Source of the DNA: an uncultured Alphaproteobacteria bacterium
GTDB taxonomy: Bacteria; Pseudomonadota; Alphaproteobacteria; Parvibaculales; Parvibaculaceae
Direction: 5' to 3'
DNA: 39,951 nucleotides
Assembly: GCA_903889655.1 (NCBI GenBank)
Contig: CAISYL010000203.1
Coordinates: 1 to 39,951, forward strand
Within the stretch, counting starts at the first letter, position 1; the number at the start of each line of letters is the position of its first letter. The notes under the pieces are model-generated. The model worked only from the letters and a program-made list of their open reading frames with translations. It searched no databases and was not told where the DNA came from. This document shows positions 18,167 through 38,905 of this stretch, piece after piece. The position numbers and the translations under genes are program-made.

Positions 18167-18190
18167 GCATTCCGTTCAGAGGAGAGACAC

Positions 18191-18655
18191 ATGTCCCGTC
18201 CACCATTACCGCCTTTCGACGAAGCGACGGCCGCCGAGAAAGTTCGCCTCGCGGAAGATGCCTGGAACAGCTGCGATCCGGCGCGCGTGGCACTGGCCTA
18301 CACACCGGACAGCCAGTGGCGCAATCGCGCGGAGTTTCTGACGGGGCGCCGGGAGATCGAGGCGTTTCTCCGACGCAAATGGACACGCGAACTCGACTAC
18401 CGGCTCATCAAGGAACTCTGGACCTTCGCGGGCAACCGGATCGCGGTGCGCTTTGCCTATGAATATCGCTACGAAAGCGGTCAGTGGTTTCGCGCCTATG
18501 GCAACGAGAACTGGGAATTCGCCGAAGACGGCCTGATGCGCCGCCGGATCGCGAGCATCAACGAGCAGCCGATCACGCCGGCCGAACGCAAGTTTCACTG
18601 GCCGAATGGAAGACGGCCCGACGATCATCCAGGCCTTTCGTCGTTCGGCTTCTGA
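18191..18655 (+). CDS. DUF1348 protein (NTF2-like fold)
   Basis: A 154-residue protein of the DUF1348 family, predicted to fold like nuclear transport factor 2, a cone often used as a small-molecule pocket or enzyme. Typical features are [20 protein letters not shown], the strongly conserved [28 protein letters not shown] and RFAYEYR, followed by [12 protein letters not shown]. Function is unknown. The start has AGAGGAGA upstream. It follows the HD-domain gene by 24 bases and ends 6 bases before the stop of the convergent ergothioneine gene, leaving no room for a separate terminator. Confidence 0.88.
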
Positions 18656-18661
18656 CGGAGT

Positions 18662-20902
18662 TCACCCTTCCAGCAGGAACATCGCATAGGCCGGTTCGTC
18701 GCCGATCCAGCTTTGCGCGATCCGCCAGCCGGCTTTCGTTGCGATCTCCGTGAAAGACTGCACCGTATATTTGTGCGAGTTCTCGGTGTGGATCGTCTCG
18801 CCGCTGTCCATCGAGAAATGCCGGCCGGTGATCGAGAAGCTTGTCGGGCGCTCGCAGACCAGATGCATCTCGATGCGCGCGGCTTCGGCATTCCATGTCG
18901 CGTGATGACCGAAAGCATCGAGATCGATGTCGGCATCGAGTTCGCGATTGATGCGGGCCAGCAGGTTCTTGTTGAAGGCCGCTGTCACACCTTTGGGATC
19001 GTCATAGGCGGTGAGCATGGTCGGCAGGTCCTTCACGAGATCGACGCCGATCAGGAATTGTCCATGCCCCAGTGTACGCCTCGCCTGCGTCAGAAAGCCG
19101 ACCGCTTCATGCGTGAGGAAATTGCCGAGCGTCGAGCCGGGGAAGAAGCCGAGCTTCGGTCGGTCGCCAAGATCGGCAGGCAGCTCCACGCCGCGCGTGA
19201 AGTCGCAGGCGACGGGCCGTACATCGAGCCGCGGATAGGAAGCCCGCAGCATATCCACCGCTTTCTCCATATGCTCATGGCTGATGTCGAGAGGCACATA
19301 GGCGGTCAGCCACTCCGCGCGATCGAGAAGCGCGCGCGTCTTGACGCTGGAGCCGCTGCCGAATTCGACGAGGACGCCGTCGGGCTTTGCCATGGCGGCG
19401 ATGTCGCGCGCGGCCTCTTCGAGCAGCGGCGCTTCGGCGGCGGGCACGTAATATTCCTGAAGGCGGTAGATTTCGTCGAAGAGACGCGAGCCCTCGGCAT
19501 CGTAGAAATATTTGCTGGGTAACGTCTTGCGGCGTTCCGAGAGGCCCTGGAGAACGTCGCGGCGGAACCGCTCGCGTTCGGTGCGCGGCGCGAGCGCGAT
19601 GGGCGCGGTCTGCCGGCCGGCATCCTCGGCGAGGCGAAGGCCGGAGAATTGCCAACGTTGATGCGGGTAGAAGAAATTGCGGTAGCTCGCGCGCGTATGC
19701 CCCGGCGCCGTGGCGATGGAGCCGCCGCGCAGCACCATCTGGTTCACCATGAACTTGCCGTTATATTCGCCGACCGAGCCCGGCGCGGGTTCGAAGCCGG
19801 GGTAAGGCGCATAGGCGCTTTGCGTCCATTCCCAGACGCCGGTGAACATCTGCTGCAGCGTGTTCTTCTCGCGCGCCGCCGCTTCCCATTCGGCCTCGGT
19901 GGGCAGGCGCTTGCCGGCCCAGCGCGCATAGGCATCCGCCTCGTAGAAACTGACATGGCAGACCGGCGCGTCGAGATCGAGTGGCCGGAAGCCGCCAAGC
20001 GTCATCGAAAACCATCGGCCGTCCGATTGCTCCCAATAGAGCGGCGCCTGCCAGCGTTCCTGCTGCACATGTGTCCAGCCGTCGGAAAGCCAGAGCTCGG
20101 GGCGCTCGTAGCCGCGATCCGCCATGAAGTCGAGCCATTCGCGATTGCTGACAGGATGCGTCGCGAGACGATAGGGCTTCAGCCAGACCTTGTGCGCCGG
20201 CGTCTCGTTGTCGAAGCAGAAATATCGCCCGTCATTGCCGATGGAGACGAAGCCGCCGGCGAAATTCTGGTCTTCATCGAAAGCGAAAGCCGATGCCGTC
20301 TCGGTGAACTGTTCCGGCGCGTAGGCCGGGCGTTCAGGATTGAGGGAAAAGGCATGCAGGATGTCGGTGAGGATCAATTCCTGATGCTGTTCCTCGTGAT
20401 TGAGGCCGAGCACGATGCGTGGGCCGATCTCGGCAAAACGCTCGGCATCGGCCGCTTCGATGACGAGCTTGATGCAATCGTCGACATGCGCGCGATAGGC
20501 CATCACGTCGCTATGGGAAGGACGCGAGAGAAGACCGCGCTGCGCGCGCGCGAATTGCGGACCGACGCCGTTGTAATAGGAATTGAAGATCGTGCGGAAG
20601 GAGGGCGCGAAATGCGCATAGCCGCGGACGAAGGGCTCCAGAACGAAAGTCTCGAAGAACCAGGTCGTATGGCCGAGATGCCATTTGGTCGGGCTCGCAT
20701 CGGGCATGGACTGGAGCATCTGGTCCTCGGGCGACAAGGGCGCGGCCAGCGCCTCGCTCCGCTTGCGCACGTTCTGATACCGCGCGAGCAGGGCGTCGAC
20801 TTCGGTGCGGAGGTCAAACGATGCGGTGGGAAACAAGCCGCGAGGCGCGACGGACGGGGCCGGGCTTCCGCCAGCGTTGATCTCCGATTGCGTATCGGCC
20901 AC
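18662..20902 (-). CDS. Fused ergothioneine synthase EgtB-EgtD
   Basis: One uninterrupted reading frame of 746 residues joins both core enzymes of ergothioneine synthesis. Residues 30-430 are EgtB, the iron-dependent sulfoxide synthase. Its DinB-like part supplies the ligands His78 (KWHLGH) and His169/His173 (NHEEQHQE), and its FGE-sulfatase part holds GKRLPTEAEWE, GVWEWTQSAY and the family motif RASYRNFFYPHQRWQFSGLR. Residues 435-746 are EgtD, the SAM-dependent histidine trimethylase, with SKYFYD, EYY (483-485), EFGSGSS (513-519), STLGN with Asn594, AYDD with Tyr633, and Glu707/Ser709 in TENSHKY. I propose the GTG at 20902, preceded by GTGGAG; a longer frame begins with TTG at 20983. EgtA, EgtC and EgtE genes are not nearby. 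The usual PTRTE after EYY reads VPAAE here. Confidence 0.93.
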   Translation of the reverse strand: MADTQSEINAGGSPAPSVAPRGLFPTASFDLRTEVDALLARYQNVRKRSEALAAPLSPEDQMLQSMPDASPTKWHLGHTTWFFETFVLEPFVRGYAHFAPSFRTIFNSYYNGVGPQFARAQRGLLSRPSHSDVMAYRAHVDDCIKLVIEAADAERFAEIGPRIVLGLNHEEQHQELILTDILHAFSLNPERPAYAPEQFTETASAFAFDEDQNFAGGFVSIGNDGRYFCFDNETPAHKVWLKPYRLATHPVSNREWLDFMADRGYERPELWLSDGWTHVQQERWQAPLYWEQSDGRWFSMTLGGFRPLDLDAPVCHVSFYEADAYARWAGKRLPTEAEWEAAAREKNTLQQMFTGVWEWTQSAYAPYPGFEPAPGSVGEYNGKFMVNQMVLRGGSIATAPGHTRASYRNFFYPHQRWQFSGLRLAEDAGRQTAPIALAPRTERERFRRDVLQGLSERRKTLPSKYFYDAEGSRLFDEIYRLQEYYVPAAEAPLLEEAARDIAAMAKPDGVLVEFGSGSSVKTRALLDRAEWLTAYVPLDISHEHMEKAVDMLRASYPRLDVRPVACDFTRGVELPADLGDRPKLGFFPGSTLGNFLTHEAVGFLTQARRTLGHGQFLIGVDLVKDLPTMLTAYDDPKGVTAAFNKNLLARINRELDADIDLDAFGHHATWNAEAARIEMHLVCERPTSFSITGRHFSMDSGETIHTENSHKYTVQSFTEIATKAGWRIAQSWIGDEPAYAMFLLEG

Positions 20903-21020
20903 GGGCGACTCCACTTCGACGAGCTGACATGAGGGTTCGTGGCTAGAAAATGCGCGGCGAAGGCGATGGTTCCGTTGTGACAATCATGTCACGCGACTAC
21001 GTCCTGGCGTCGTCTCGACG

Positions 21021-21045
21021 GGAACGGTGGCCGGCGGGAGGCGTT
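21021..21045 (+). promoter_or_regulatory. EcfG-type general-stress promoter candidate
   Basis: GGAAC (21021-21025), exactly 16 bases, then CGTT (21042-21045). This is an exact match to the consensus GGAAC-N16-17-CGTT bound by EcfG sigma factors of alphaproteobacteria. It points right, away from the egtB-egtD gene, into a gap whose only matching reading frame is the small membrane peptide at 21105-21185. Transcription would begin near 21052. Confidence 0.6.
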
Positions 21046-21104
21046 CGACCCTCAAATCATCGCTTCACGCGGAACAAACGCACGTGCTTTCGAGTCATCC
21101 CACA

Positions 21105-21185
21105 ATGAGATACGTCATACTCTGGATATCGACGATACCCGTTCCCCTGGTCCTTCTGGCCTGGCTGCTCTTCTTCACGAATTGA
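21105..21185 (+). CDS. Putative membrane microprotein under a stress promoter
   Basis: A 26-codon frame (MRYVILWISTIPVPLVLLAW followed by LLFFTN) that is hydrophobic throughout and would form one membrane helix. An in-frame GTG at 21084, with a weak GGAA nine bases upstream, would give 33 residues. In favour: the EcfG-type promoter 60 bases upstream in the right direction, a consistently hydrophobic composition, and a stop before the convergent treY gene. Against: no good ribosome site at the ATG, and several ATA codons that are rare in the neighbours. I do not recognise a family. The promoter might instead drive a non-coding RNA antisense to the treY tail. Confidence 0.4.
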   Translation: MRYVILWISTIPVPLVLLAWLLFFTN

Positions 21186-21201
21186 GCATGTCGGCGCGGG
21201 A

Positions 21202-23841
21202 TCAGGCGCCGCTTCGTTCCCGCCACAACACTGCGACAGGAAGCTGCGAGAGAATTTGCGCGATGTCGATGCGGCCGTCGCCGGCATGGGTCTCACCTGT
21301 CAACAGATTGCACGTCCGATCAGCCGGCGATGGAAGCAGAAGCGTCGTGCCACCCCAGGCGGAGGCGGGGATTAGCGGCACGTTGTCGTCGCCGAGGCGG
21401 CGCAGCGAATAGCGCGACGCGATGACGACGGCATGATCGCCGATGCGATCGCCGCGCGTGAAGGCGATCACGTTCTCCGCCGCCTCGCCTTCGAGCGCCA
21501 GCGGCTCATAGACGCCGTCGGCAAGGACGTCGCGATACCGCTCGCGAAGGGAGAGCAGGCGATGAATGAGCGCCTGCTTGATGCGCCCGTCGGGCCAGTC
21601 GTGCAGGAGCGCCGGCAGGTCATGCGTCCCGGCAAGGGAAGCGATGCGACGCTGATAGTCGACGGGTCGCCGGTTGTCGGGATCGACGAGGCTGAAGTCC
21701 CAGAACTCCGTTCCCTGATAGAGGTCCGGCACGCCGGGTGCTGTGAGGCGCAACAGCGTCTGCGTCAGCCCGTTCAACGCGGCCGCCGGCGCGATGGCGC
21801 GAACGAAGCGCGCAAGCTCGCCGAGGAAGGCGGATGAGCGCTCATTGTCGAGAATGGCGCGGGTGAAATCCTGTGCCGCGTCTTCATAGCCCTGATCCGG
21901 GGCGATCCAGCGCGAGCGGCGCTTCGCCTCGCGGATCGCTTTCGTCTGCCAGGCAAGAATGCGGTCGCGGAACGTAGCAAGCGCCGCCTGATCGGTCGCA
22001 TCCGCATCGACCGGCCAGGCGCCGATCAGCGTCTGGTAGAGCATCAGTTCGTCGGCGGGCTCCGGCGCGACGCCGTCGGGAAGCGATGCGCGGAACGGCG
22101 CGTTGAGACGCATCCAGTGCCGCACCGCCTCGCCCCATGTGTCGGGGATCTCGCTCAAGGTGGCGATGCGCATGCGCGTGTCCTCGCCGCGCTTGTGGTC
22201 ATGCGTCGCGGTGGCGAGCATCGCATACGGGAAATTGCGCGACCGCTCGGCACAGGCCGCATGGAAGGCATCGCGCGAGAGCGAGAAGTCGGCGGGGCTC
22301 GATCCGACCTCGTTGCGCGAGATAAGGCGCCCGTAGCGGTAGAAGGCCGTGTCCTCGATGGATTTCGCCGTCAAGGCGGAGGTGAGCTGCTGGAAGCTCG
22401 CGATGGCGCGGCGCTGCAAGGCGCGGGCGGCTCGCCCGGCAACGGGCTTTGCGCCCAGCCAGTCGTCGATCAGCGTCAGAATGTGGTGATCGGTTTCGGG
22501 GATGATCTGACGGGCCTGTTCCATTGCCGCCTCGAAGAGCGGACCGTCGGAAGGAACGCGGCCGTCGACGGTCGCGTAGCTGCGATAGACCGGAAAATTG
22601 ACCAGCACTTCGGTGAGCGCATGGCGAAGGGCCGGCAGCGTGTAGTCGCGCGTCGCCGGATCGTTGCGGGCGAGACGGTGGAGCGCGTCCGCCGTCTTGT
22701 CGCGCTCGCTATGGAGGTTCTCGTCGAGGATGAGGCGCTTTGCCGTTTCGGCGACCGCCCGAAAATCGGGACGGCGCCCGGTGAGTTCGGTCCAGAGCGT
22801 GGTCAGCGGGGTCTCGCCGCGCGCATCGTGAAGGACGCCCGCCGCCTGATCCATGAAGTCGTAACCGGTCGTGCCGTCGACCAGCCAGTCGGTCTGCAGC
22901 CGCTCGGAGGCGCCGAGAATCTTTTCGACGATGATATAGGGACGGCCGTTCGGCGCGGCGGCGGGACGATGCGCCGAAAGATCGTCGAGCACCCGGCGCA
23001 GGCGCCGGCAATAGGTGCGCGGATCGGCGAGCCCGTCGACATGGTCGATGCGTACGCCATCGATGAGCCCTTCCGCATAGAGCTTGAAGATCAGCGCATG
23101 CGTCTGTTCGAAGACGTCCGGCCGCTCGACCTTGAGGCCGGCGAGGTCGGTGATGTCGAAGAAGCGCCGCCAGTTGATTTCGTCCGCCGCCGTGCGCCAC
23201 CAGGCGAGCCTGTAATACTGGCGTTCGAGAAGACGGTGCAGATTGGCGCGGCCTTCCGGTTCGCGCGTGTCGAAGGCCTTCGCGAAATCGCCCGCGAGGT
23301 CTTCGTGGCTTCGCGGGTTCAACGGAAAGAGGCGATCGTAATAGGCGACCGACAGGCGGCCGGTATCGGGCGCGACATGGAGCGAGAGTTCGCCTGCCTT
23401 CAGCACCTCGCCATAGGGCTTGCCGAGAAAGGGCAAGTGGACCTTGTTGCGGAGCGAGGCGTCCTTCGAGTGCCATTCGATGTCGAAGAAACCGGCATAG
23501 GCGCTGTCCGGTCCCCATTCGAGTACATCGTTCCACCAGCGATTGGCGTTGTCCGAGACGCACATATGGTTTGGAACGATGTCGACGATGAGGCCGAGGT
23601 CGAGCGCCCGCAGCGCCGCGACGAAACGCCGGAAAGCCGGTTCGCCGCCAAGTTCGGGGTTGATCTCGGCGTGATCGACGATGTCGTAGCCGTGCATCGA
23701 ACCGGGTTTCGACTTGAGGATCGGCGAGGCATAGATGTGGCTGACGCCGAGCTGCGCATAATAGCCGAGGACCGGCACCGCATCGGCGAAGCGAAAGCCC
23801 TTGTGAAACTGCAGCCGGGCCGTTGCGCGAGGCGTCGTCAT
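21202..23841 (-). CDS. treY: Maltooligosyltrehalose synthase
   Basis: Intramolecular transglucosylase that turns the reducing-end alpha-1,4 bond of a maltodextrin into an alpha,alpha-1,1 bond, making maltooligosyl trehalose in the cytoplasm. The 879-residue GH13 protein has the TreY hallmarks QFHKGFRFADA, SHIYASPILKSKPGSMHGYD and DIVPNHM. The catalytic residues are the nucleophile Asp266 in VRIDHVDGLAD and the acid Glu306 in IIVEKILG. The C-terminal TAPGVPDLYQGTEFWDFSLVDPDNRRPVDY is also typical. Its ATG overlaps the malQ stop by four bases. It is last in the seven-gene operon. TreZ, which cleaves its product, is two genes upstream. Confidence 0.96.
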   Translation of the reverse strand: MTTPRATARLQFHKGFRFADAVPVLGYYAQLGVSHIYASPILKSKPGSMHGYDIVDHAEINPELGGEPAFRRFVAALRALDLGLIVDIVPNHMCVSDNANRWWNDVLEWGPDSAYAGFFDIEWHSKDASLRNKVHLPFLGKPYGEVLKAGELSLHVAPDTGRLSVAYYDRLFPLNPRSHEDLAGDFAKAFDTREPEGRANLHRLLERQYYRLAWWRTAADEINWRRFFDITDLAGLKVERPDVFEQTHALIFKLYAEGLIDGVRIDHVDGLADPRTYCRRLRRVLDDLSAHRPAAAPNGRPYIIVEKILGASERLQTDWLVDGTTGYDFMDQAAGVLHDARGETPLTTLWTELTGRRPDFRAVAETAKRLILDENLHSERDKTADALHRLARNDPATRDYTLPALRHALTEVLVNFPVYRSYATVDGRVPSDGPLFEAAMEQARQIIPETDHHILTLIDDWLGAKPVAGRAARALQRRAIASFQQLTSALTAKSIEDTAFYRYGRLISRNEVGSSPADFSLSRDAFHAACAERSRNFPYAMLATATHDHKRGEDTRMRIATLSEIPDTWGEAVRHWMRLNAPFRASLPDGVAPEPADELMLYQTLIGAWPVDADATDQAALATFRDRILAWQTKAIREAKRRSRWIAPDQGYEDAAQDFTRAILDNERSSAFLGELARFVRAIAPAAALNGLTQTLLRLTAPGVPDLYQGTEFWDFSLVDPDNRRPVDYQRRIASLAGTHDLPALLHDWPDGRIKQALIHRLLSLRERYRDVLADGVYEPLALEGEAAENVIAFTRGDRIGDHAVVIASRYSLRRLGDDNVPLIPASAWGGTTLLLPSPADRTCNLLTGETHAGDGRIDIAQILSQLPVAVLWRERSGA

Positions 23842-25931
23842 GACCTGCCGCGCGTGTCTGCGATGGCCGAAAGACGCCGTTCGACGGCCGGATCGTCGAA
23901 GAGTTTCGATGCCTCGCCGGCATAGCGGCGTCGCCAGTTCGGATATTCATCGACCGTGCCAGGCATGTTCGCCTGGTCGCGGAGCGCCAGCGCATCGTCG
24001 ATCGGCAGGATGGCAAGGGGGGACGACGTCCGGCCGATGAAACTCGCGGCCGCCTCCACCGCGCGTTCGGCCGAAGCCTCATGCGCGCCGGTGCCGTTGA
24101 CGACGCCGTCATGGCGGAAGGTGCGCCATAGCGCCTCGCGGTCGATGCCGCGCGTATGGCGTTCGCTGGCAGCGTCTTCGGCGCCGATGACGCCCGCACC
24201 TTCGCGGTCGGCGATGTCGCGCCCCTCCCACCAGCCGGCCACCGTCGGCAGGTCGTGGGTCGAGGTCGTCGCCATCGCGTTCGGCGAATAGATGGAGGAC
24301 GAGAAGAAGCCCATGTCGTCGCGCTCGAACCACATGACCTGCGTGCCGAGGATACCGGCGCGATGCAGGCGCTCGCGGAATCCGGCCTCGACCGTGCCGA
24401 GATCCTCGCCGAGCACGATGGCGCGATTGCGCCAGGATTCGAGCGCGATCAGCCGGAAGAGATCGTCCGAAGGATAAGTGATGTAGGCGCCGTCGACGGG
24501 ACTGGCGCCATCCGGCACGACCCAGAGACGGGTAAGGCCCATCGCATGGTCGATGCGCATGCCGCCCGCATGACGCATGGTCGCGCGCAGGGCCTCGATG
24601 AAGGCGCGGTAGCCATGCGGCCGCATGGCATGCGGGCAGAGGGCGGCGATGCCCCAGGATTGGCCGCTCGCATTGAAGAGGTCGGGCGGCGCACCGACCG
24701 AAAGCCCGGAAAGCATTTCGCTCTGCCGGCTCCAGGGATGGCTTCCCTTCGCGTCGGTGCCGACGGCGAAATCCGTGATGAGGCCGATCGCCATGCCGGC
24801 GTCGCGGCAGGAGGTTTGCGCCGAAGCGAGACTGCGATCCGCGATCCATTGCAGGAAGACATGGAATGCGACCTCGTCTTCATGCGCATGGGCGAAATCG
24901 AGAACCGCAAAGCCGCGCGGATCGCGGTAAAGGCTCGGCCAGTTCTGCCAGTCGTCGAGCGCCCGGTCCTCGGTTGTCAGATGCGCATGCAGCGCCTCGA
25001 AGCGGGCGTGATCCTCCAGCGCCTCGCCGCCTTCGATGCGGAAGCGCTCGAAATCTTCCTTCAACGAGCCATTGCAGCCGGAGAAGATGTCGAACAGGCG
25101 GCGGAAGAGCGCGAGCTTGGCGCGTCCGGCTTCCGGCCAGTCGATCTGCGGCAGGGCTTCGAGCGCGGAGAAGGATGTGGCGAGATCTCCGTCTTGCAGC
25201 GCGCGCGCGATGAGGTCGGAGTCGAGGGCCGCGGCCGGATTGGCGTAGAGCGGATTGAGGAAGGCCCGGCTCGACGGCGCATAGGGGCTGTAGCGGTCGG
25301 GCGCGGCGGAGAAGAGCGCATGGACGGGATTGATCGCAAAGGCGGCGGCCCCTCGCGCGGCGGCGGCGCGGGCGGCTTGCGCGAGGGCGCCGCCATCGCC
25401 GATGCCGCCATCGCCCTTGCGGCGCAAGCTGTAGACCGGTGCCTGTACACCCCAGAGGCGAGCCTGCCCGCCGTGACCGCTATGAATGTCTGCGATCGTG
25501 AAGCACCGCGCCGGGGCCACGGCGAGGGTGACTTCCTCCGGGCCGAGCTGGAGCTTGTGATAGCCGATATCGCCGACCGCAGGCAGGTGAAAACCATCCG
25601 CGTCGCGCTGAACGGCGCCGTCGACGAAAGCGCCGTCTTCGAGCACGATCCTGTAATGAGCGATCTCGCCGAAGCGCGCGAGCGGCGGCAGGCGGACAGG
25701 CTCTCCCACCGTGACGATCAGAAGCGGCGGCAAGGGCGCGTCGGAGGCGATGTTGCGCAGCGCGACGCGGCTCGATGCGATCTGCGAGGCCGTGGTGGCG
25801 GAAAGACCGAAGGCGGTGAGGATCGTCCGGAGCACGTCGAGCGAAACCTCATGCGGTTGGCCGGCGGCGTCGACCCATGACGGCGCGATGCCGGCGAATT
25901 GCGCAAGCTCGCGAAGGCTGTCGTCGCTCAT
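23838..25931 (-). CDS. malQ: 4-alpha-glucanotransferase (amylomaltase)
   Basis: GH77 disproportionating enzyme that moves glucan segments between maltodextrins, recycling the maltose and short chains that TreY and GlgE handle poorly. The 697-residue protein has a bacterial N-terminal extension (1-140, LAQFAGIAPSWVDAAGQPHE) ahead of the catalytic barrel. Catalytic residues are Asp461 in GMRIDHAMGLTRLWVVP, Glu509 in LGEDLGTVEAGF and the aspartate of TTSTHDLPTVAGWW. It overlaps treZ upstream and treY downstream by four bases each (ATGA), so all three should be translationally coupled. Confidence 0.95.
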   Translation of the reverse strand: MSDDSLRELAQFAGIAPSWVDAAGQPHEVSLDVLRTILTAFGLSATTASQIASSRVALRNIASDAPLPPLLIVTVGEPVRLPPLARFGEIAHYRIVLEDGAFVDGAVQRDADGFHLPAVGDIGYHKLQLGPEEVTLAVAPARCFTIADIHSGHGGQARLWGVQAPVYSLRRKGDGGIGDGGALAQAARAAAARGAAAFAINPVHALFSAAPDRYSPYAPSSRAFLNPLYANPAAALDSDLIARALQDGDLATSFSALEALPQIDWPEAGRAKLALFRRLFDIFSGCNGSLKEDFERFRIEGGEALEDHARFEALHAHLTTEDRALDDWQNWPSLYRDPRGFAVLDFAHAHEDEVAFHVFLQWIADRSLASAQTSCRDAGMAIGLITDFAVGTDAKGSHPWSRQSEMLSGLSVGAPPDLFNASGQSWGIAALCPHAMRPHGYRAFIEALRATMRHAGGMRIDHAMGLTRLWVVPDGASPVDGAYITYPSDDLFRLIALESWRNRAIVLGEDLGTVEAGFRERLHRAGILGTQVMWFERDDMGFFSSSIYSPNAMATTSTHDLPTVAGWWEGRDIADREGAGVIGAEDAASERHTRGIDREALWRTFRHDGVVNGTGAHEASAERAVEAAASFIGRTSSPLAILPIDDALALRDQANMPGTVDEYPNWRRRYAGEASKLFDDPAVERRLSAIADTRGRS

Positions 25932-27712
25932 GGGCGATCCTCCAGAAGGGCGACGAGGGAGACGGCGGGCAGGCTGCTGGCCCGCAGGCTCTCCGCATCG
26001 CCCATATGCGATTCGAAAAGAAGTCGGCCCCGCTTGTCGCCGGCGACCTCGATCGGCTCGCGACCGAGATTGAGGTAGAGCGAAAGCAGCGCACCGTCGC
26101 CGAGACGCCAGCGCGCGGCGACGGCTGCGGCGCCGATGGCCTCCGCGCCTTCCGACCGGGAACCGTCGAGCCTCGGCACGATTTCCTTGTGCCGAAGAGC
26201 GAGGAGGTCATGCGTCAGCGCCAGCCGCGCCGCACCTTCCGGTCTCTGCGTCTCGCTGAAATCGGGACGCGAGGAGGAGAAGGTCTCCGGATCGTTGGGA
26301 TCGGGGATGAGGGCGCGCCGCGCCGGATCCTTGAATGCCTTGAAGGCGGCGAATTCGCGCTGCCTTCCCTCGCGCACGGCTTGTGCGAGTTCGTGGTCGT
26401 GATCGGTGAAATAGAGGAAGGGCGTTCGCGCGCCCCATTCCTCGCCCATGAAGAGCATCGGAATTTGCGGGCTGAGCAGGATGAGCGCCAGCGCGGCTTC
26501 GAGCGGCTGGGACTCCGCAAGCGTCGTCAACCTCTCGCCGAAGGCGCGATTGCCGATCTGGTCGTGGTTCTGCAGGAAATGCACGAAGCGCGTCGGCGGC
26601 AGATGTCCGCTCGGCTCGCCGCGCATTTCGCCGCCGCGATGCGGGGACGGTTCGCCCTGATAGACGAAGCCGGAAGAAAGGGCGCGTGCAAGTTTCGTCG
26701 CCGGCGCCTCGGCGTAATCTTCGTAATAGCCTTCCGTCTCGCCGGTGAGGAGGACGTGGAGGACGTGATGCACGTCGTCGTTCCACTGCGCGTCGAAATG
26801 GCGCTCGAGATAGTGCGCCTGATTGGCATCGTTCTCGAGCACGAGGTGAATATGACGGTCGGGGTCCGTCTCCGCGCGCACGCGTTCCGATAGCTCCGTC
26901 AGGATGTCCTGATCGGCGATTGCGTGGACGGCGTCGAAACGCAACCCGTCGAAGCGGAATTCCGTCAACCAGTAGATGGCGTTCTCGATGAAGAACCGCC
27001 GTACCTCCGTCTGGCGGAAATCGATGGCGGCGCCCCACGGCGTCGAGACGTCTTCGCGGAAGAAGGGCGAGGCGTAGGCGTGAAGATAATTTCCGACGGG
27101 CCCGAAGTGGTTGTAGACGACGTCGAGGAACATCATCAGCCCGCGTTGATGCGCGGCATCGACGAGCGCCCTGAGATCGTCGGGCGTGCCATAGGCACCG
27201 TCGGGCGCGTAAGGGAGAACGCCGTCATAACCCCAGTTCCGCGCCCCCGGAAAATCCGCGATGGGCATCAGCTCGACGGCGGTGACGCCGAGCGCGGCCA
27301 GATGATCGAGCTTCTCGATGACGCCGCGAAAACCGCCCAGCAACCCCGCATGGCATTCATAGAGCACCGTCTCGCGCCACGGCCGCCCGCGCCAGTCCGG
27401 CACCTGCCATTGATAGCTGTCGGGATCGACGAGGCGGCTCGCGCCTGTCGGTACGTCGCCTTCGAGCGCGCGGGCCGCGGGGTCCGGCACGGCGAGATCG
27501 TCCGGCGCAAGGCGAAAGCGATAGGGCGTGCCCGCAGCGACACGGGCTTCCGTTTCGAACCAGCCTCCGTCGCGCTTCGTCATCGGCAGATCGGCGGAGC
27601 CGTCGATGGCGACCGTAACCGCATCGCGGCTCGGCGCCCAGAGACGGAAGCGCGCGACGTCACCGGCACGTTCGGCGCCGAACGACCATTTATATGGTTC
27701 GCGCGCACTCAT
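25928..27712 (-). CDS. treZ: Maltooligosyltrehalose trehalohydrolase
   Basis: Cuts maltooligosyl trehalose, the TreY product, to free trehalose and a shorter maltodextrin. The 594-residue GH13 protein has a carbohydrate-binding N-terminal domain (KWSFGAERAGDVARFRLWAP, 1-100), then YECHAGLLGGFRGVIEKLDH and LDVVYNHFGPVGNYL. The nucleophile is Asp260 in LRFDAVHAI, the acid is Glu293 in LVLENDAN, and FLQNHDQIGNRAFGERL carries the third aspartate. The ATG at 27712 overlaps the glgX stop by four bases. A longer reading upstream lies inside glgX and is not real. Confidence 0.95.
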   Translation of the reverse strand: MSAREPYKWSFGAERAGDVARFRLWAPSRDAVTVAIDGSADLPMTKRDGGWFETEARVAAGTPYRFRLAPDDLAVPDPAARALEGDVPTGASRLVDPDSYQWQVPDWRGRPWRETVLYECHAGLLGGFRGVIEKLDHLAALGVTAVELMPIADFPGARNWGYDGVLPYAPDGAYGTPDDLRALVDAAHQRGLMMFLDVVYNHFGPVGNYLHAYASPFFREDVSTPWGAAIDFRQTEVRRFFIENAIYWLTEFRFDGLRFDAVHAIADQDILTELSERVRAETDPDRHIHLVLENDANQAHYLERHFDAQWNDDVHHVLHVLLTGETEGYYEDYAEAPATKLARALSSGFVYQGEPSPHRGGEMRGEPSGHLPPTRFVHFLQNHDQIGNRAFGERLTTLAESQPLEAALALILLSPQIPMLFMGEEWGARTPFLYFTDHDHELAQAVREGRQREFAAFKAFKDPARRALIPDPNDPETFSSSRPDFSETQRPEGAARLALTHDLLALRHKEIVPRLDGSRSEGAEAIGAAAVAARWRLGDGALLSLYLNLGREPIEVAGDKRGRLLFESHMGDAESLRASSLPAVSLVALLEDRP

Positions 27713-29838
27713 GCCGCATGCGCCGGAATGCGCGTCGTGACCAGCGCAAGGGCATGGGCGGCGACCGTCACATCGTTGCCGATGGATTGATCTTCGGCCG
27801 GGTCCGCCGCGCTGTCGAGACGCAGCCGCCAGTCGACCGGGACGTTCCCCGGCAGGGCAGGAAGCTTGAAGGCGACATCCGCCGCCGAAGCGTTGAACAA
27901 AATGAGAAGCATGTCGATCTGCCCCTCCGGGCTCGTCTTGCTTGCGGGACCAGCAAGCCGAAGTGTAAGTGTGCGACCCTCGGGTTCGTTCCACTGCTCA
28001 GGCGTCATTTCCTGCCCCGTCTCGTCGAACCAGGCGATTTCCGCGAGGTGGGGCGCGGCGAAACGATGCGCGTGGAAATAATGGGCGGCGCGAAGGATCG
28101 AGAATTCCTTCCTCAACCGCGTGAGCTTGCCGACGAAGGCGGTCAGCGCGCGCGCATCGGGGGCCTCCGCCGCCTTCCAGTCGAGCCAGGAGAGCTCGTT
28201 GTCCTGGCAATAGGCGTTGTTGTTGCCCTTCTGGCTGCGGTCGAACTCGTCGCCCGCGAGCAGCATCGGCGTGCCATGCGAAAGCAGAACCGTGGCGAGC
28301 ATCGCGCGCTGGACGCGGCGTCTCGTCTCGTTGATTGCGGCGTTCTCGCTCGGCCCTTCGGCGCCCCAGTTGGCGCTGTAATTTTCGCCATGACCGTCAT
28401 TGTTGTTCTCGCCATTCGCCTCGTTGTGCTTCTGCGAATAGCTGACGACATCGCGCAGCGTGAAGCCGTCATGCGCCGCGATGAAATTGACCGAGGCCCA
28501 TGGTTTGCGAAAACGACGCTCGAACAGCCAGGCCGAGCCGGTGATGTGTCCCGCGAGATCGGCGCGCTGGCCGGCATCGCCGCGCCAGAAGCGCCGGAAA
28601 TTGTCGCGCGCACGATCGTTCCATTCCGAAAATCCGGGTGGCATCTGGCCGAGTTGATAACCGCCGGGCCCGATGTCCCATGGTTCGGAATAGAGTTTGA
28701 CGCGCGAGAGGATGGGGTCTTGCCGGATTGCGTCGAAGAAGCCGGAGCCCACATCGTAGCCATTGCCCTCGCGGCCGAGCGTGATGCCGAGATCGAAACG
28801 GAAGCCGTCGACGTGATAGGCGTTCACCCAGTAGCGCAGCGAATCCATGATCATCTGCAAGACGCGTGGGTGGGACGCATTGACCGTGTTCCCGACGCCG
28901 GTCTCGTTGATGTAGTAGCGCTCGTCGCCGGGGATGAGGCGGTAATAGCTCGCATTGTCGAGACCGCGGAACGAGATCGTCGGGCCGAGCTCGTTGCCCT
29001 CGCAGGTATGATTGTAGACGACGTCGAGAATGACCTCGATGCCGGCCTCGTGCAGACGACGCACCGCGACGCGAACTTCGTTGAGCGCGCCGTCGGAAAG
29101 ATAGGCGGGCTCGGGCGCGAAGAAGCAGAGGGTGTTATAGCCCCAGTAGTTGCGCAGACCCTTCTCGATCAGGATGCGGTCCTGCATGAAGGCGTGGACC
29201 GGCATCAGCTCGACGGCATTGACGCCTGTCCTGACGAGATGATCGATGAAATGGGGATCGGTCAGCGCGGCGAAGGTGCCGCGCTCGTTGGCGCGGAGAT
29301 CCTGCCGCAGCATCGAGGCGCCTTTGACGTGCAGTTCATAGATGACGACGTCCTTGGGCGGAATGGAGGGCGGCCTGTCGTCACCCCAGTGGAAGGCGTC
29401 GTCGGTCACGATCGATTTCGGCACGGCCGGCGCGCTGTCGCGGCGGTCGAAGGAAAGATCGCCGCGCGGCGAGTGCAGCCTGTAGCCGAAGAGCGAATCC
29501 GACCAGCGGACCGGCCCGTTGACCTGCCGGGCGTAAGGGTCGACGAGAAGCTTGTGCGGATTGAAGCGATGTCCCTGTGCGGGCTGATAAGGCCCATAGG
29601 CACGATAGCCGTAAAGAAGTCCCGGCAGCGCATCGGGCAGATAGCCGTGCCAGACTTCGTCGGTGCATTCCGGCAATTCGTAGCGCGCCACCTCGCGGCG
29701 ACCCGATGGATCGAAGACGCAGAGTTCGATCTTTTCCGCATTGGCGGAGAAGACGGCGAAATTCGTGCCGAGCCCGTCCCATGTCGCGCCGAGGGGATAG
29801 GGGAGCCCGGCCGTCATGCGGTCGCGAAGGTTCTGCAT
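27709..29838 (-). CDS. glgX: Glycogen debranching enzyme GlgX
   Basis: Isoamylase-type GH13 enzyme that hydrolyses alpha-1,6 branches of glycogen or limit dextrin, supplying linear maltodextrins for TreY; in trehalose clusters this role is often called TreX. The 709-residue protein has the N-terminal module PYPLGATWDGLGTNFAVFSA, DVVYNHTCEGNE, nucleophile Asp349 in GFRFDLGITLGRE, acid Glu385 in LYSEPWDIGPGGYQ and the third aspartate in FIAAHDGFTLRDVVSY. The insertion HNEANGENNNDGHGENYS is characteristic of the GlgX/TreX group. The ATG lies 2 bases after the glgB stop with GGGAAC in front. Confidence 0.95.
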   Translation of the reverse strand: MQNLRDRMTAGLPYPLGATWDGLGTNFAVFSANAEKIELCVFDPSGRREVARYELPECTDEVWHGYLPDALPGLLYGYRAYGPYQPAQGHRFNPHKLLVDPYARQVNGPVRWSDSLFGYRLHSPRGDLSFDRRDSAPAVPKSIVTDDAFHWGDDRPPSIPPKDVVIYELHVKGASMLRQDLRANERGTFAALTDPHFIDHLVRTGVNAVELMPVHAFMQDRILIEKGLRNYWGYNTLCFFAPEPAYLSDGALNEVRVAVRRLHEAGIEVILDVVYNHTCEGNELGPTISFRGLDNASYYRLIPGDERYYINETGVGNTVNASHPRVLQMIMDSLRYWVNAYHVDGFRFDLGITLGREGNGYDVGSGFFDAIRQDPILSRVKLYSEPWDIGPGGYQLGQMPPGFSEWNDRARDNFRRFWRGDAGQRADLAGHITGSAWLFERRFRKPWASVNFIAAHDGFTLRDVVSYSQKHNEANGENNNDGHGENYSANWGAEGPSENAAINETRRRVQRAMLATVLLSHGTPMLLAGDEFDRSQKGNNNAYCQDNELSWLDWKAAEAPDARALTAFVGKLTRLRKEFSILRAAHYFHAHRFAAPHLAEIAWFDETGQEMTPEQWNEPEGRTLTLRLAGPASKTSPEGQIDMLLILFNASAADVAFKLPALPGNVPVDWRLRLDSAADPAEDQSIGNDVTVAAHALALVTTRIPAHAA

Positions 29839-29840
29839 GG

Positions 29841-32039
29841 TCAGGTTCCCGGCTTCAGAACGAGCGTCGCGAGCGGCGGCAGGGTGAGGCGAAGCGATGC
29901 CTGCCGTCCGTGACTCGCGATGTCGTCGGCGTGAATGACGCCGCCATTGCCGACATTCGAACCGCCATAAATATCCGCGTCGGTGTTGAGACATTCGCGC
30001 CAGGGGCCGGCATGCGGAACGCCGATGCGATAGTCGTGGCGCGGCACCGGCGTCATGTTGCAGATCGCGACGACGGGCGGATGGCCCGGTGCGCTGCGTT
30101 CATAGGCAAAGACGCTGTTCGCGCGATCGTCGCCGACGAGCCAGGCAAAGCCCCCCGGCTCGCAGTCCTTCACATGAAGCGAAGGCTCGGTCGCATAGAC
30201 ATGATTGAGGTCGCGCACCAGCCGCTGCACGCCGAGATGCGCGGGATTGTCGAGCAGGCTCCATTCGATCGACCGGTCGTGGTTCCACTCGTGCCACTGC
30301 GCGATCTCGCCGCCCATGAAGAGGAGCTTCTTGCCTGGATGCGTCCACATGAATCCGTAATAGGCGCGCAGATTGGCGAATTTCTGCCAGGCGTCGCCGG
30401 GCATCTTGCCGATCAGCGAGCCCTTGCCGTGAACGACCTCGTCATGCGAAAGCGGCAACAGGAAGCGCTCGTTGAACGCATAGATCATGCCGAAGGTCAT
30501 TTCGTCGTGGTGGTAGCGGCGGTGGATCGGATCTTCCGACATGTATTTCAACGTGTCGTGCATCCAGCCCATATTCCATTTGTAGGTGAAGCCGAGGCCG
30601 CCATGTTCGGTATCGTGGGTGACGCCGGGCCAGGCGGTCGATTCCTCGGCGAGCATGATCGCGCCGGGGCAACGCTCGCCGATGATCCGATTGAGATTGC
30701 GCAGGAGCGAGATCGACTCGAGGTTCTCGCGGCCGCCGTGAACGTTCGGAATCCATTCACCAGCCTTGCGGCTGTAGTCGCGATAGAGCATCGAGGCCAC
30801 CGCGTCGACGCGCAACCCGTCGACGTGAAATCGCTCGAGCCAGAAAAGCGCGCTGCCGATCAGGAAGTTCAAGACTTCGTTGCGGCCGAAATTGTAGATC
30901 ATCGAATGCCAGTCGGGATGAAAGCCCTCGCGCGGGTCTTCATGCTCGTAGAGCGCGGTGCCGTCGAAACGGATGAGGCCATGGGCATCGTTCGGGAAAT
31001 GTCCCGGCACCCAGTCGAGCAATACGCCGATGCCCGCCTCATGGAAGCGGTCGACGAAGCGCGCGAAGCCGTCGGGTTCGCCCATGCGCGCGGTCGGCGC
31101 ATATTGGCTCAAGGGCTGATAGCCCCATGAGCCGCCGAAGGGATGCTCCATGACGGGCATCAACTCGATATGCGTGAAGCCCATGCGCTCGACATAAGGG
31201 ACGAGACGGTCGGCGAGCACGTCCCAGCTCGGGCTCTGGTGCGCTTCGTCGCGAAACCATGAGGCTGCGTGAACCTCGTAGACGGAAATGGGCGCGTCGG
31301 GGCGCTGGCGCGCCGCGCGGTTGGCCATCCAGTCCTCGTCCGTCCAGCGATAAGGCGCGACGCCGGCGACGATGGAAGCCGTGGCGGGCGGCACTTCGGT
31401 GGCGCGCGCAAAGGGATCGGCCTTGAGCGGCAGCACGCTCATGTCCGGGCCGACGATTTCATATTTGTAAGGCTCGCCGACGCCGAGACGCGGAATGAAG
31501 AGTTCCCAGATGCCCGCGCCATGTCGCAGACGCATCGGATGACGCCGTCCATCCCAGGCGTTGAAATCGCCGACCACGGAAACCCGCCGCGCATTAGGCG
31601 CCCAGACCGCGAAGCGCACGCCGGGTATGCCGTCGATGGTGCGCGGCAAGGCGCCGAGGCAGTTCGCGGGATCGGGATGCGTGCCGGCCGAGAATTTGTG
31701 GAGATCGTCGTCGGACAGGAGAAGCCCGAAGGAATAGGGATCTTCGGTTTCCTGTACCGCCTCCGACCATTGGATGCGGAGCCTATAAGGCTCGTCGCGC
31801 GCGATCGTTCCCGAGAAGACCCCTGCATTGTGAATGCGCGGAAGCTCGCCCAGCGTCTCGCCGGTCTTGCGCGACAGCACGGAAACGGCGAGCGCCCCGG
31901 GCATGAAGGCGCGGATGACGGCGCCGCCCTTCGTCGGGTGGCGGCCGAGCAGCGAGAAGGGATCGCCGTTGCGTCCCTGCACCAGCGCGTCGAGCGCGCG
32001 TTGTTCCACCGGTACATGAGCGGTCAGGGTCTCAGGCAT
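29841..32039 (-). CDS. glgB: 1,4-alpha-glucan branching enzyme
   Basis: Transfers an alpha-1,4 segment to an alpha-1,6 position, branching the linear glucan that GlgE builds. The 732-residue GH13 protein has two N-terminal beta domains ([10 protein letters not shown] and [20 protein letters not shown]) and the barrel motifs GHFPND, nucleophile Asp412 in [18 protein letters not shown], acid Glu465 in [14 protein letters not shown] and [19 protein letters not shown]. The spacing of 53 between nucleophile and acid equals that of E. coli GlgB. The ATG at 32039 has an ideal AAAGGAGG and overlaps the end of treS-mak by eight bases. Confidence 0.97.
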
Positions 32040-35000
32040 GGGCGTCCTCCTTTCCTTCGGATGTTTCGAGGACGCGCACGGCAAGCGCCGCAAGGCCGCG
32101 CACCGGAATGCCGAGCCAGCTTGGCCGGTTCGCGACTTCGTAGAGAACTTCGTAGGCCGCCTTCTCGAGCAGGAAGAGATCGATCAAAGCTGCGCGGCCC
32201 TTCCGCGAAATCCAGGGATGTTCCGCACCGTCGATCGCATCGTCGTAGCCGGCGAGCAGTGCTTGCGCGGCGCGGCGCCGGAAATCGGCGATCAGCTTGC
32301 GGCGCGCCTCGGCGGAAGGCGGCGGCAGAGGCTCGCTATCGACGGTTTCGACGGCGGCCGCCGCATAGTCGAAGGAGCGCAGCACGCCGGCGACGTCGCG
32401 CATCGGGCTCGTCTTCGCGCGACGCTCGGCGAGCGGCCGAGCCGTCTCGCCCTCGAAATCGATGATGATCGCGTCGCCCTGCGAAACGAGGATTTGCCCC
32501 AGATGGAGATCGCCATGAATGCGGATGCGCAGGGAATCGCTGCCGGCAAAGGCGAGGTCGGATGTCGCGGCGAGCAGAACCTCGCGTTTGCTGACGAGAT
32601 CGGCGGCGAGACGGCCCGTCTCCTCGTCCGGCCATTCGGTGCGCTTCGACAGGGCATCGAGCGCATCGGTGAGCATCTTGCACGCGCCTTCCGCCCATTG
32701 ATCGAGCGTATCGGCATCGGCGGGCTCGGGCGCGAAGTCGGCCTCGCCGGAAGGGGCGGCGAGAAGCGCATGCAGCTCGCCGACGCGCCGGCCGATGATG
32801 CGCGCGAAGGTGTCGTATTCCTCAAGCGGATCGATCTCTTCGTCGGGCTTCGTATCGGGAAGCGCGTGCTCGGCTACCGCGCGGTTCAGATAATCGACGG
32901 TCCAGTTCCAGCCGTCGCCCTGGTTCTGGATGAAGCCCTGCAGAATGGCGATGGTCGCCTGCTCGCCGTCGGTGCTGAAGCGCGTCACGTCGCCGAGGAA
33001 TTGCGGCGTGTTGCGATAGCCGAGCGTCGTCAGGTGCCGGCTCATCTCGACTTCCGGATGAATGCCGGGATTGATCTTGCGGATGAGCTTCAGCACCGCC
33101 GTCGAACCGATGACGAGCGAGCTGTTCGACTGCTCGGTGGTGAGCCAGCGCAGCGACATGTCGTCCATGAACGGCGTTTCGGCGAAGGCCGGCGAGGATC
33201 GGAATTCGATCTCGCCGGTCTGCGTCGGCACCGTCGTGCCGCTCTTCAGGTGATCGATGAGGCCATGCGCGAACTCCTCCAGCGCGAAAGCGTCGGTAAG
33301 ATAGCCGATGCGCCGACCGAGGCGGACGCGCGCCAGCGCCAGCTGCTGCGGCAGCGGGGAGGCGAGGTTCTCGTCTTCCCAGAAAATGCCGAGCGGAACG
33401 GCGTAGCGTTCGGTGCGGCCATCGAGATCGACGTCGATGCCGGTCAGCAGAATATCGCGATCGCCATGCCGGAGCGCGGCGGAGCCGGCGATGCGGATCG
33501 CGCGGATGGGTTCGCCCTTCGAGGCGAACCAGCGGCGCAGCGGCAGATAGGCTTTCAGGATTTCGTCCTGCAGCAGCGTACGGCGTTCACCCGTCAGAAC
33601 GTCCTCGATGCCTTTGCGAAGAACGAGCGTCACATAATCGGTCATCTGTTCCGGCGCCAATGTTTGCCATGCCGGTCCTTCGGCATTCTGGCGAAGTTCG
33701 AACCAGTAAAAGCCGTAGGGCGGCAGCGTCAGCAGATAAGTAAGTTGTCCGATCCGCGGAAAAGGCGAGGAGCCCATCATCTCGATCGGCACATAACCCG
33801 CATAGGCGGCGAGATCGAGTTCGACGGCCTGCGGGGCGCGGCAGAGATTGGCGACGCAGAGAACGGTGGTGCCTTCGTGCTCGCGCAGATAGGCGAGGAT
33901 CTTGCGGTTGCCGGGATAGAGAAACCTGATCGCCCCGCGGCCGAAAGCCTTGTGCTGGCGTCGCGTCGCCAGCATGCGGCGCATCCAGTTGAGCAGCGAA
34001 TGCGGATCGCGCGCCTGCGCCTCGACATTGACGGCATCGTAGCCGTAGAGCGAGTCCATGATCGGCGGCAGGACGAGGCGTTCGGGATCGGCGCGGGAGA
34101 AGCCGCCGTTCCGGTCGGCGCTCCATTGCATCGGCGTGCGCACGCCGTGCCGGTCGCCGAGATGGATGTTGTCGCCCATGCCGATCTCGTCGCCGTAATA
34201 GATGACCGGTGTGCCGGGCAGCGAAAGAAGCAGACTCGTCATCAGCTCGATGCGGCGGCGGTCGCGCTGCAGCAGCGGGGCGAGGCGGCGGCGGATGCCG
34301 AGATTGAGCCGCGCGCGCTTGTCGACCGCATAGGTCTCCCAGAGATAGTCGCGCTCCTTGTCGGTCACCATTTCGAGCGTCAGCTCGTCATGGTTGCGCA
34401 GGAAGATCGCCCATTGCGCATTTTCCGGGATCGCCGGCGTCTGACGCAGGATGTCGGTGACGGGGAAGCGGTCTTCCTGCGCGATCGCCATGTACATGCG
34501 CGGCATCAGCGGGAAGTGGAACGCCATGTTGCATTCGTCGCCGTCGCCGAAATATTCCTGCGTGTCCTCCGGCCATTGATTGGCCTCGGCGAGAAGCACG
34601 CGACCGGGAAAATGCTCGTCCATATAGGCGCGGATCTGCTTCAGGATCGCATGGGTCTCGGGCAGGTTCTCGTTCGACGTGCCCTCGCGCTCGACGAGAT
34701 AGGGCACGGCATCGAGCCTGAGCCCGTCGACGCCCATCTCGAGCCAGAACTGCATCACACGCAGAACTTCCTTCAGCACCGCCGGATTGTCGTAGTTGAG
34801 ATCGGGCTGGTGCGAATAGAAGCGGTGCCAGAAATAGGCGCCCGCGACGGAATCCCATGTCCAGTTCGATTTCTCGGTGTCGCAGAAGATTACACGCGTG
34901 CCCGCATAGGCCTGGTCATTGTCGGACCAGACGTAATAATCGCGATAGCGCGAACCCGGTTTGGCGCGGCGCGCGCGCTGGAACCACGGATGCTGGTCGG

Positions 35001-35340
35001 AAGTGTGGTTGACGACGAGCTCGGTGATGACGCGGATACCGCGCGCATGCGCTTCCTTCACGAAATGACGGACGTCGGCCATGACGCCGTAATCGGGGTG
35101 GACGTCCTTGTAGGCCGCAATGTCGTAGCCGTCGTCGAGACGCGGCGAGGGATAGAAGGGCAGAAGCCACAGCGTATCGACGCCGAGTTCGGCGATATAG
35201 TCGAGCTTCTGGATCAGCCCCGGAAAATCGCCGATGCCGTCGCCATTGGCGTCGAAAAAGGATTTCGGATGGAGCTGGTAGATGACCGCGTCCTTGTACC
35301 AGAGCGGATCATCGTTCAGCGGCACTTTCAGGCTCGCCAT
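32032..35340 (-). CDS. Trehalose synthase-maltokinase fusion (TreS-Mak)
   Basis: Bifunctional 1102-residue enzyme. The N-terminal half (1-560) is trehalose synthase, a GH13 isomerase interconverting trehalose and maltose, with [19 protein letters not shown] and catalytic Asp210 ([14 protein letters not shown]), Glu252 ([11 protein letters not shown]) and Asp318 (FLRNHDEL). The C-terminal half (about 590-1100) is maltokinase (Pep2), which makes maltose 1-phosphate. It has an aminoglycoside-kinase-like fold with [20 protein letters not shown] and the catalytic and metal motifs HGDLHLGQ near 942 and IIDFEGE near 959. The fusion channels trehalose straight to the GlgE substrate. Its ATG directly follows the glgE stop (TGAATG) with GAGGAAC upstream. 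Confidence 0.96.
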
Positions 35341-38300: not shown

Positions 38301-38670
38301 TGAACCATTCCGGCTGGTGGCCGGGCTGGATGCCGTCGAGCGCCAGACGGTCGATGACGAGGTCGAGGTAGAGCGCAAGGTTTCGGGCGCGGGCCGCCTC
38401 CGCCAGGACCGCGAGATAGTCGTCGGCCCTTCCTTCGCCGATGGCGGGATGAAGTGTGTCGTAATCGGCGGTGAGAAAAAGATTGCCATCCGGAGACGGC
38501 CGGAAGAGCGGGGGCATCAGGATTGCGTTGAAACCCATCGCCACGCAGCGCTCCATCTCGTCGATGAGCCGGTCCGGCGATGTCATCAGCGGATGCAGGT
38601 AATAGATGCGCCACGCATCGCGCGGGCCACGATCTCGAATGGTCGATGGTGACGCGGAAAGCGACTTCAT
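35341..38670 (-). CDS. glgE: GlgE maltosyltransferase with extra N-terminal amylase-like domain
   Basis: Transfers maltose from maltose 1-phosphate to a growing alpha-1,4-glucan, releasing phosphate. The C-terminal part (about 480-1109) is a complete Glg[20 protein letters not shown] opens the beta domain, and the barrel holds nucleophile Asp837 ([19 protein letters not shown]), acid Glu866 ([20 protein letters not shown]) and TYFTWRHTK. The spacing of 29 between the two equals that of Streptomyces GlgE. The N-terminal 470 residues are a second amylase-like barrel whose catalytic positions are lost (GFRCKRP with Lys181 where Asp is expected), so it is likely structural or glucan-binding. The start at 38670 is favoured because a stress promoter lies just upstream; a TTG at 38811 would lie above it. 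No clear ribosome site precedes the ATG. Confidence 0.95.
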
Positions 38671-38712
38671 ATGCAAAGGGAGCCATCGGGAAGGAGGGAC
38701 CGTCGAGGGAAG

Positions 38713-38737
38713 AACCTTTCGAGGTTCGATTTGTTCC
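38713..38737 (-). promoter_or_regulatory. EcfG-type general-stress promoter of the trehalose-glucan operon
   Basis: On the minus strand GGAAC (38737-38733) is followed after exactly 17 bases by GTT (38715-38713), the consensus GGAAC-N16-17-GTT of alphaproteobacterial EcfG sigma factors. It would start transcription near 38706 and give a 35-base leader to the glgE ATG at 38670. The inverted repeat GAACC-TTTCGA-GGTTC (38712-38727) overlaps the -10 element and could be a repressor site. Confidence 0.7.
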
Positions 38738-38859
38738 GCCTGGTTGGCCGAAGCCCGCAGATTTCCGCGGCATTTCGCGACTGTGTGAACAGGCGATGCA
38801 ACCTCGGGCAAGTCTCTCCGTTGTTAGACCTGAGCCCGCATACCGGAACGCCCGCCGCA

Positions 38860-38873
38860 GGTTCATGTGAACC
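38860..38873. repeat. Inverted repeat between glgE and the MscS gene
   Basis: GGTTCA-TG-TGAACC is a six-base inverted repeat with a two-base centre, 33 bases upstream of the MscS start codon. A second GTTCATG follows at 38880. It shares the GGTTC/GAACC half sites of the repeat over the glgE promoter. It may be an operator or just a short hairpin. Confidence 0.35.
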
Positions 38874-38905
38874 GCTCTCGTTCATGAGATGGAGAAGGAA
38901 ATCAG

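Follow-up and report, generated by a model that had tools for sequence, protein, structure and literature searches.

The window analysed here, a stretch of 39,951 nucleotides from an uncultured member of the family Parvibaculaceae (Alphaproteobacteria), carries a tight run of seven genes of trehalose and alpha-glucan metabolism (Table 1), and the question raised by this locus is what switches the run on. An earlier note on this DNA had placed in front of it a promoter of the general stress sigma factor EcfG, under the control of PhyR and NepR. The comparisons below uphold this proposal, in that the position and spacing of the site are retained in alphaproteobacterial glgE loci and are rare outside the class, the site tracks PhyR, and the regulators are present in the genome. 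We regard the site as the putative EcfG promoter of the seven-gene glgE operon, an assignment which the comparative sequence evidence makes very probable.

A candidate EcfG promoter upstream of a seven-gene operon

The operon glgE-treS/mak-glgB-glgX-treZ-malQ-treY extends from 38670 to 21202, entirely on the minus strand, and its six junctions, calculated from the coordinates, measure 0, -8, +2, -4, -4 and -4 bases. Terminator-like sites occur 12 times on the two strands of 21000-38700, against 11.3 in shuffled sequences. The seven genes are thus located on one strand, are joined by short or overlapping junctions and show no excess of internal terminators, as is typical of an operon. The claim that about 17.5 kb is switched on as a unit is borne out as regards the length (17.47 kb) and the tight junctions. 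Internal promoters are, however, conceivable, as the region upstream of glgX in Sphingomonas melonis Fr1 itself gave an EcfG-dependent lacZ signal; the motif in this region is weak, and the region was assigned to the putative indirect targets (PMC6599016). The first gene is opened by the ATG at 38670, which begins a frame of 1,109 codons. Around 460 N-terminal residues of the encoded GlgE precede the usual GlgE domains without a Pfam match, and these residues align in many relatives.

Table 1. Coordinates of the predicted genes, candidate promoters and repeat discussed in the text.
Feature	Position	Strand	Basis or remark
Putative EcfG-type promoter	38713..38737	-	-35 GGAAC 38737-38733; 17-base spacer; GTT 38715-38713
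Short inverted repeat GAACCT-n4-AGGTTC	38712..38727		Inside promoter spacer and -10 region
Divergent MscS-type channel gene	38906-39949	+	PF00924
glgE, long form, 1109 aa	35341..38670	-	PF11896, PF21702, PF00128
treS fused to maltokinase (mak)	32032..35340	-	TIGR02456 and TIGR02457 above cut-off
glgB	29841..32039	-	TIGR01515, NF003811 above cut-off; start inferred
glgX	27709..29838	-	TIGR02100 above cut-off; start inferred
treZ	25928..27712	-	TIGR02402 above cut-off; start inferred
malQ	23838..25931	-	TIGR00217 above cut-off
treY, last of the tight run	21202..23841	-	TIGR02401 above cut-off
26-residue hydrophobic ORF	21105..21185	+	59 bases below the GGAAC-N16-CGTT site
Second EcfG-like site, GGAAC-N16-CGTT	21021..21045	+	Motif scan; between treY and egtBD
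Near-consensus site, GGAAC-N17-ATT	20949..20973	-	34 bases upstream of the presumed GTG start of egtBD
egtB-egtD fusion (ergothioneine synthesis)	18662..20914	-	TIGR03440 and TIGR03438 above cut-off; start inferred

Read from the letters of the window, the minus strand from 38737 to 38713 is GGAAC-AAATCGAACCTCGAAAG-GTT, with a spacer of 17 bases, exactly as the earlier note had described it. Written with a four-base -10 box the site is GGAAC-N16-GGTT, so that, compared with a -35 box GGAAC followed after 16-17 bases by CGTT, only the C is replaced, by a G, which is a known variant. In Sphingopyxis granuli the -10 box is reported to vary, with GGTT among the commonest forms after CGTT, and a GGTT promoter served as the template for in vitro transcription by EcfG (PMC7083833). 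The site is located just upstream of glgE and on the same strand, at a distance of 42 bases from the ATG (the previously given 43 is the difference of the coordinates), and falls within the approximately 100 bases before the coding start, the interval in which the EcfG motif is enriched in S. melonis (PMC6599016).

Five matches to the loose pattern GGAACN15-19GTT are found in the window, where 3.07 would be expected, and 20 of 100 shuffles gave at least five. Across the whole genome GGAACN17GTT is found 97 times and its reversed pattern 117 times, while the corresponding counts for GGAACN16-17CGTT are 79 and 68. On these figures many of the genomic matches must be due to chance, and since there is no overall enrichment the bare motif does not constitute evidence; genome-wide counts were dropped as a judge of the site. 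The same counts favour the foremost rival reading, namely that the match before glgE is itself fortuitous and that a different promoter, whether housekeeping or regulator-controlled, drives the operon. No sigma-70-like promoter was, however, found in 38600-38950 by a consensus scan, which is in itself weak evidence. What does speak for the site is its position ahead of the first operon gene, and the fact that other Alphaproteobacteria have it before glgE as well.

Recurrence of the site upstream of alphaproteobacterial glgE genes

The sense strand upstream of 126 glgE loci from elsewhere was scanned, comprising 60 alphaproteobacterial loci (14 classed by record title and 46 from genomes of the class), 62 non-alphaproteobacterial loci and four of unclear class. 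The title-classed set, scanned in full, represents the top 80 among 187 relatives, with the class taken from the titles. Loci with less than 150 bases of upstream sequence (L040 and L171 among the alphaproteobacterial, L034, L044 and L049 among the non-alphaproteobacterial loci) were counted as misses in the 60 and 62, while L118 and L134, where glgE is split over contig ends, were left out. Sampling across the order yielded no further glgE loci.

The exact pattern GGAAC-N16-18-GTT was observed upstream of glgE in 32/60 alphaproteobacterial loci, as opposed to 1/62 non-alphaproteobacterial loci, as well as in 1/4 loci of unclear class; the alphaproteobacterial controls gave 8/60 for the antisense strand and 2/60 for the reversed pattern. 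A site within 200 bases of the start codon, taken as any in-frame ATG, GTG or TTG, is present in 30/60 alphaproteobacterial against 1/62 other loci (Fisher p = 9e-11), these loci being partly non-independent, as five of the 30 sites derive from Microvirga. Twenty-two genomes of the class, with 16 family codes, carry a site within this distance.

The spacing is equally confined. When spacers of 8 to 30 bases were scanned in the alphaproteobacterial loci, 19 loci matched at 17 bases and 12 at 18, with at most three at any other length. The two spacers together account for 31/60 loci, compared to 0.63 on average and at most 4 in 200 Markov resamples, or for 31/58 alphaproteobacterial and 1/59 non-alphaproteobacterial loci when those with short upstream sequence are excluded. 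Among 90 permuted pairs of boxes at these spacers the true pair ranked top with 31 and the runner-up reached 7, while control stretches of equal length gave 0/58 inside glgE and 3/55 further upstream. The base preceding GTT in the 31 listed sites is C in ten, G in nine, T in seven and A in five, and the G of the GGTT in the window is therefore ordinary.

Exact sites were furthermore found in seven of eight named plasmid records, at 28 to 139 bases before the start used (Rhizobium tumorigenes, R. leguminosarum, R. etli CFN 42, Sinorhizobium mexicanum, Bosea, Azospirillum oryzae and Paracoccus), while the eighth, from Croceicoccus, contains a near match only. The order glgE-treS-glgB is shared by R. 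etli, R. leguminosarum and R. tumorigenes, and by Bosea as far as its sequence was fetched; the glgE gene of A. oryzae has no adjoining treS or glgB. The site is thus kept before orthologous glgE genes in about half of the alphaproteobacterial loci, rather than in all. Such recurrence at one place and one spacing before alphaproteobacterial glgE, and not elsewhere, argues against a fortuitous match in the window, which we consider unlikely.

Association with the PhyR and NepR regulators

The genome encodes a single NepR, which scores over the Pfam cut-off, and a PhyR with full-length matches to the solved structures 3n0r ('Response regulator', E-value: 6e-88) and 4qic (PhyR, E-value: 7.5e-77). 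An EcfG-like sigma factor is encoded on the same contig as nepR and phyR; among solved structures it best matches 5uxx ('RNA polymerase sigma factor', E-value: 5e-42), and its place near nepR-phyR suggests that it is EcfG itself. With this assignment, all three of EcfG, NepR and PhyR are encoded in the genome. On this contig, nepR and genes that by eye look like otsBA are likewise preceded by GGAAC-N17-GTT. In the general stress locus (L163, contig C106), where the gene labels are partly by eye, nepR and a kinase-like gene share one strand, with phyR, a Crp/FNR-like gene, the EcfG-like sigma factor gene and otsBA on the opposite one, and GGAAC-N17-GTT occurs six times within 11.9 kb.

The assembly consists of 294 contigs with 3.67% contamination. 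The tetranucleotide make-up of the window correlates at 0.990 with that of 30 pooled loci of the assembly, and the values for four other loci, including a congeneric one, range from 0.91 to 0.97. This is weakly consistent with an origin of the window in the same genome as the regulators.

Among 46 glgE-bearing genomes, the site before glgE is present in 20 of the 29 that are PhyR-positive and in two of the 17 that are PhyR-negative (p = 2e-4), where the PhyR cut was placed after a gap between E-values of 1.2e-6 and 1.5e-4 had been seen and the genome at 1.2e-6 was counted as positive. A similar distribution was obtained for NepR, with the site in 18/25 genomes with NepR and 4/21 without. Besides the two PhyR-negative genomes with a site, the exceptions are the nine PhyR-positive genomes in which no exact site is found near the start. 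Five of these have no candidate in a partial scan allowing one mismatch, two have a candidate no more than 110 bases from the first homologous residue, and in the last two the candidates are located only far away.

This distribution bears on a further reading, in which some ECF sigma factor other than EcfG, recognising a -35 box of the AAC type, reads the site. ECF factors usually have an AAC motif in their -35 box (PMC7083833), and the genome may encode further members of this group. The tracking of PhyR across genomes nevertheless argues against such a factor, which we hold to be very unlikely. The site is, moreover, nearly absent outside the Alphaproteobacteria, where other ECF factors are common.

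The inverted repeat and the start of glgE

A perfect inverted repeat, GAACCT-TTCG-AGGTTC, with six-base arms four bases apart, overlaps the -10 region, and is called terminator-like on the plus strand by the terminator scan. That this repeat is the functional element, as the operator of a sugar-responsive repressor or a plus-strand terminator-like stem, and the sigma factor match merely its by-product is highly improbable, as GGAAC (38733-38737) falls outside the repeat and a comparable six-base repeat accompanies only 1/33 sites before other alphaproteobacterial glgE genes. The repeat may be an operator or a product of chance, and could supply a layer of repression alongside the EcfG promoter rather than in its place.

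The longer reading of glgE from 38811 named in the earlier note does exist, beginning with an in-frame TTG. The further claim of that note that the promoter settles the start goes too far, as a TTG at 38676 is also located below the promoter and the alignments favour 38670 without settling it. The 38811 reading was compared with other loci using its 47 extra residues plus 100 as the query. Of the 22 loci that match this query, 19 first align at or beyond residue 3 of the protein read from 38670 (at residue 21 in 11 cases), which favours 38670 over 38811. The remaining three give gapped, weak alignments that extend by 8 to 26 residues into the additional part above 38670, with identities there of 5/9, 8/27 and 8/26. 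No Shine-Dalgarno-like sequence is visible before 38670. Overall, the alignments favour a predicted start at 38670, or at the TTG 38676, over 38811.

Genes flanking the operon

At the far end of the operon, a second EcfG-like site on the plus strand precedes a small hydrophobic open reading frame, the product of which, judged by eye, is probably a small membrane protein, and the arrangement looks like that of an EcfG-controlled gene. This site matches the consensus better than the one before glgE. It had been a candidate for a chance match pointing nowhere, and this was dropped in view of the 26-codon frame below it and an arrangement shared by relatives. Matches to the small frame with an E-value of 1 or better were found in 16 other genomes, seven of which were fetched. 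These seven, all from the same genus, are weak matches (E-values: 4e-4 to 0.02), and GGAAC-N17/18-GTT is located 37-44 bases upstream in five of the seven and lacking in two. A second copy of the small hydrophobic frame is found elsewhere in the same genome (C252:29209).

Also located at this end is the egtB-egtD fusion with its near-consensus site. Upstream of egtB in other Alphaproteobacteria, among the best-scoring 29 of 74 other matching genomes, the exact GGAAC-N16-18-GTT is present in 15/29, while the antisense strand gave two loci at N17 and two at N18. The Sphingopyxis granuli general stress regulon includes egtB and egtD (PMC7083833), and genes of the egtB/egtD type, as we read the annotations 'TIGR03440' and 'probable methyltransferase', are EcfG-dependent in S. 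melonis (PMC6599016). At the near end, no GGAAC-N16-18-NTT was found before the divergent MscS-type channel gene; MscS channels have been reported as EcfG-dependent in sphingomonads (PMC6599016; PMC7083833).

Proposed regulation and origin of the arrangement

The presence of the same switch before the same first gene in many Alphaproteobacteria suggests that the trehalose/glucan pathway is probably stress-induced. The partner switch between EcfG, NepR and PhyR, and a transcript start a few bases below the -10 box, belong to the general knowledge of ECF promoters. By analogy, NepR would hold EcfG in the unstressed cell, and under stress phosphorylated PhyR would take NepR away, freeing EcfG to bind GGAAC...GGTT. 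The transcript would begin a few bases downstream, at around 38705, would be induced by stress and would read through all seven genes. The encoded enzymes would then interconvert maltodextrin, trehalose, maltose-1-phosphate and branched alpha-glucan, with protection against osmotic stress and drying as the presumed outcome.

The glgE gene proper is found in three of the 27 searched genomes of the genus, that of the window included (weak alpha-amylase-type matches were not counted), and the two congeneric GlgE copies share 52% identity with that of the window. In a collection of plasmid records, GlgE matches stay under 60% identity in 194 of 195 records. For positions 1-20000 of the window, none of the plasmid records reaches 80% coverage; the ten matches listed show 72-81% identity across 3-5% of this stretch, and three further records contain short matches at 95-99%. 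In a tree of 47 GlgE proteins, chosen from all loci, the copy of the window has no supported neighbour and the two congeners group elsewhere, while alpha-, beta- and gammaproteobacterial copies are mixed. Three rows of unclear class were dropped for a test of independence, leaving 44, in which the site is present in 28/36 alphaproteobacterial rows (window included) and 0/8 others. This suggests that the site follows the host and not the gene lineage. A tree-based test of independent gains provided only three usable pairs, which places significance out of reach.

We tentatively propose that the GlgE operon moves between proteobacterial classes, that Alphaproteobacteria have repeatedly put it under their general stress sigma factor, and that the promoter tracks the regulator of the host, a scenario to which we give somewhat less than even chances. 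Repeated capture is hypothetical because of the small number of usable pairs and because the GlgE of the window lacks a well-supported neighbour. If it holds, the window would represent one such capture, with ergothioneine synthesis and a small hydrophobic protein under EcfG also encoded at its far end, and the general stress response would control, beyond trehalose, the GlgE-derived glucan associated with drying tolerance.

EcfG promoters as such are known, and it is the breadth of the site before alphaproteobacterial glgE genes, which we did not find in print, that appears mildly new: in many families, the sequences point to control by EcfG at the start of the GlgE glucan pathway. Among the papers listed, no title or opening of an abstract describes an EcfG promoter before glgE, a weak negative confined to these parts of the text, and passages of PMC3616915, PMC8877191, PMC4814048 and PMC3518184 contain nothing on a glgE promoter.

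Comparison with known systems

Promoters of EcfG (RpoE2, RpoE4, SigT) follow the patterns GGAAC-N16-17-CGTT or GGAAC-N17-20-GTT, with GGAAC-N16-CGTT given for R. etli (PMC3892343; PMC4167512). The site in the window resembles these in its -35 box, spacer length and distance to the start, in the presence of PhyR, NepR and EcfG in the genome and in the occurrence of a site before nepR, and differs in its -10 box, GGTT instead of the commonest CGTT. Genes of the pathway have been placed under EcfG before. In S. melonis Fr1, the treY-malQ-treZ-glgX genes, which correspond to the distal four genes of the operon in the window, are EcfG-dependent, with the motif GGAAC-N17-20-GTT (PMC6599016). However, the weak motif there precedes glgX, whereas the site in the window precedes glgE, three genes earlier. 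In B. diazoefficiens, the treS and otsAB genes are under EcfG control (PMC8092242).

The closest counterpart in gene content is found on plasmid pCME4A9I of Croceicoccus marinus, where the identical order glgE-treS-glgB-glgX-treZ-malQ-treY occurs on one strand, but the site is a near match only, GGAAC-N17-ATT, located 112 bases upstream of the start as annotated. Plasmid p42f of R. etli CFN 42, by contrast, carries an exact GGAAC-N17-GTT, located 30 bases upstream of the annotated start of glgE, although its cluster comprises three genes only (glgE-treS-glgB) and its -10 box is AGTT. The glgE and glgA operons of Pseudomonas aeruginosa encode the same enzymes, employed against osmotic stress and drying (PMC8084333), but are two in number and belong to a gammaproteobacterium, in which EcfG is not expected, as this factor has been described as exclusive to the Alphaproteobacteria (PMC3892343). 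In Pseudomonas, the GlgE glucan protects against drying and trehalose against salt (PMC8084333), which raises the possibility that drying phenotypes of mutants in ecfG or phyR reflect the glucan.
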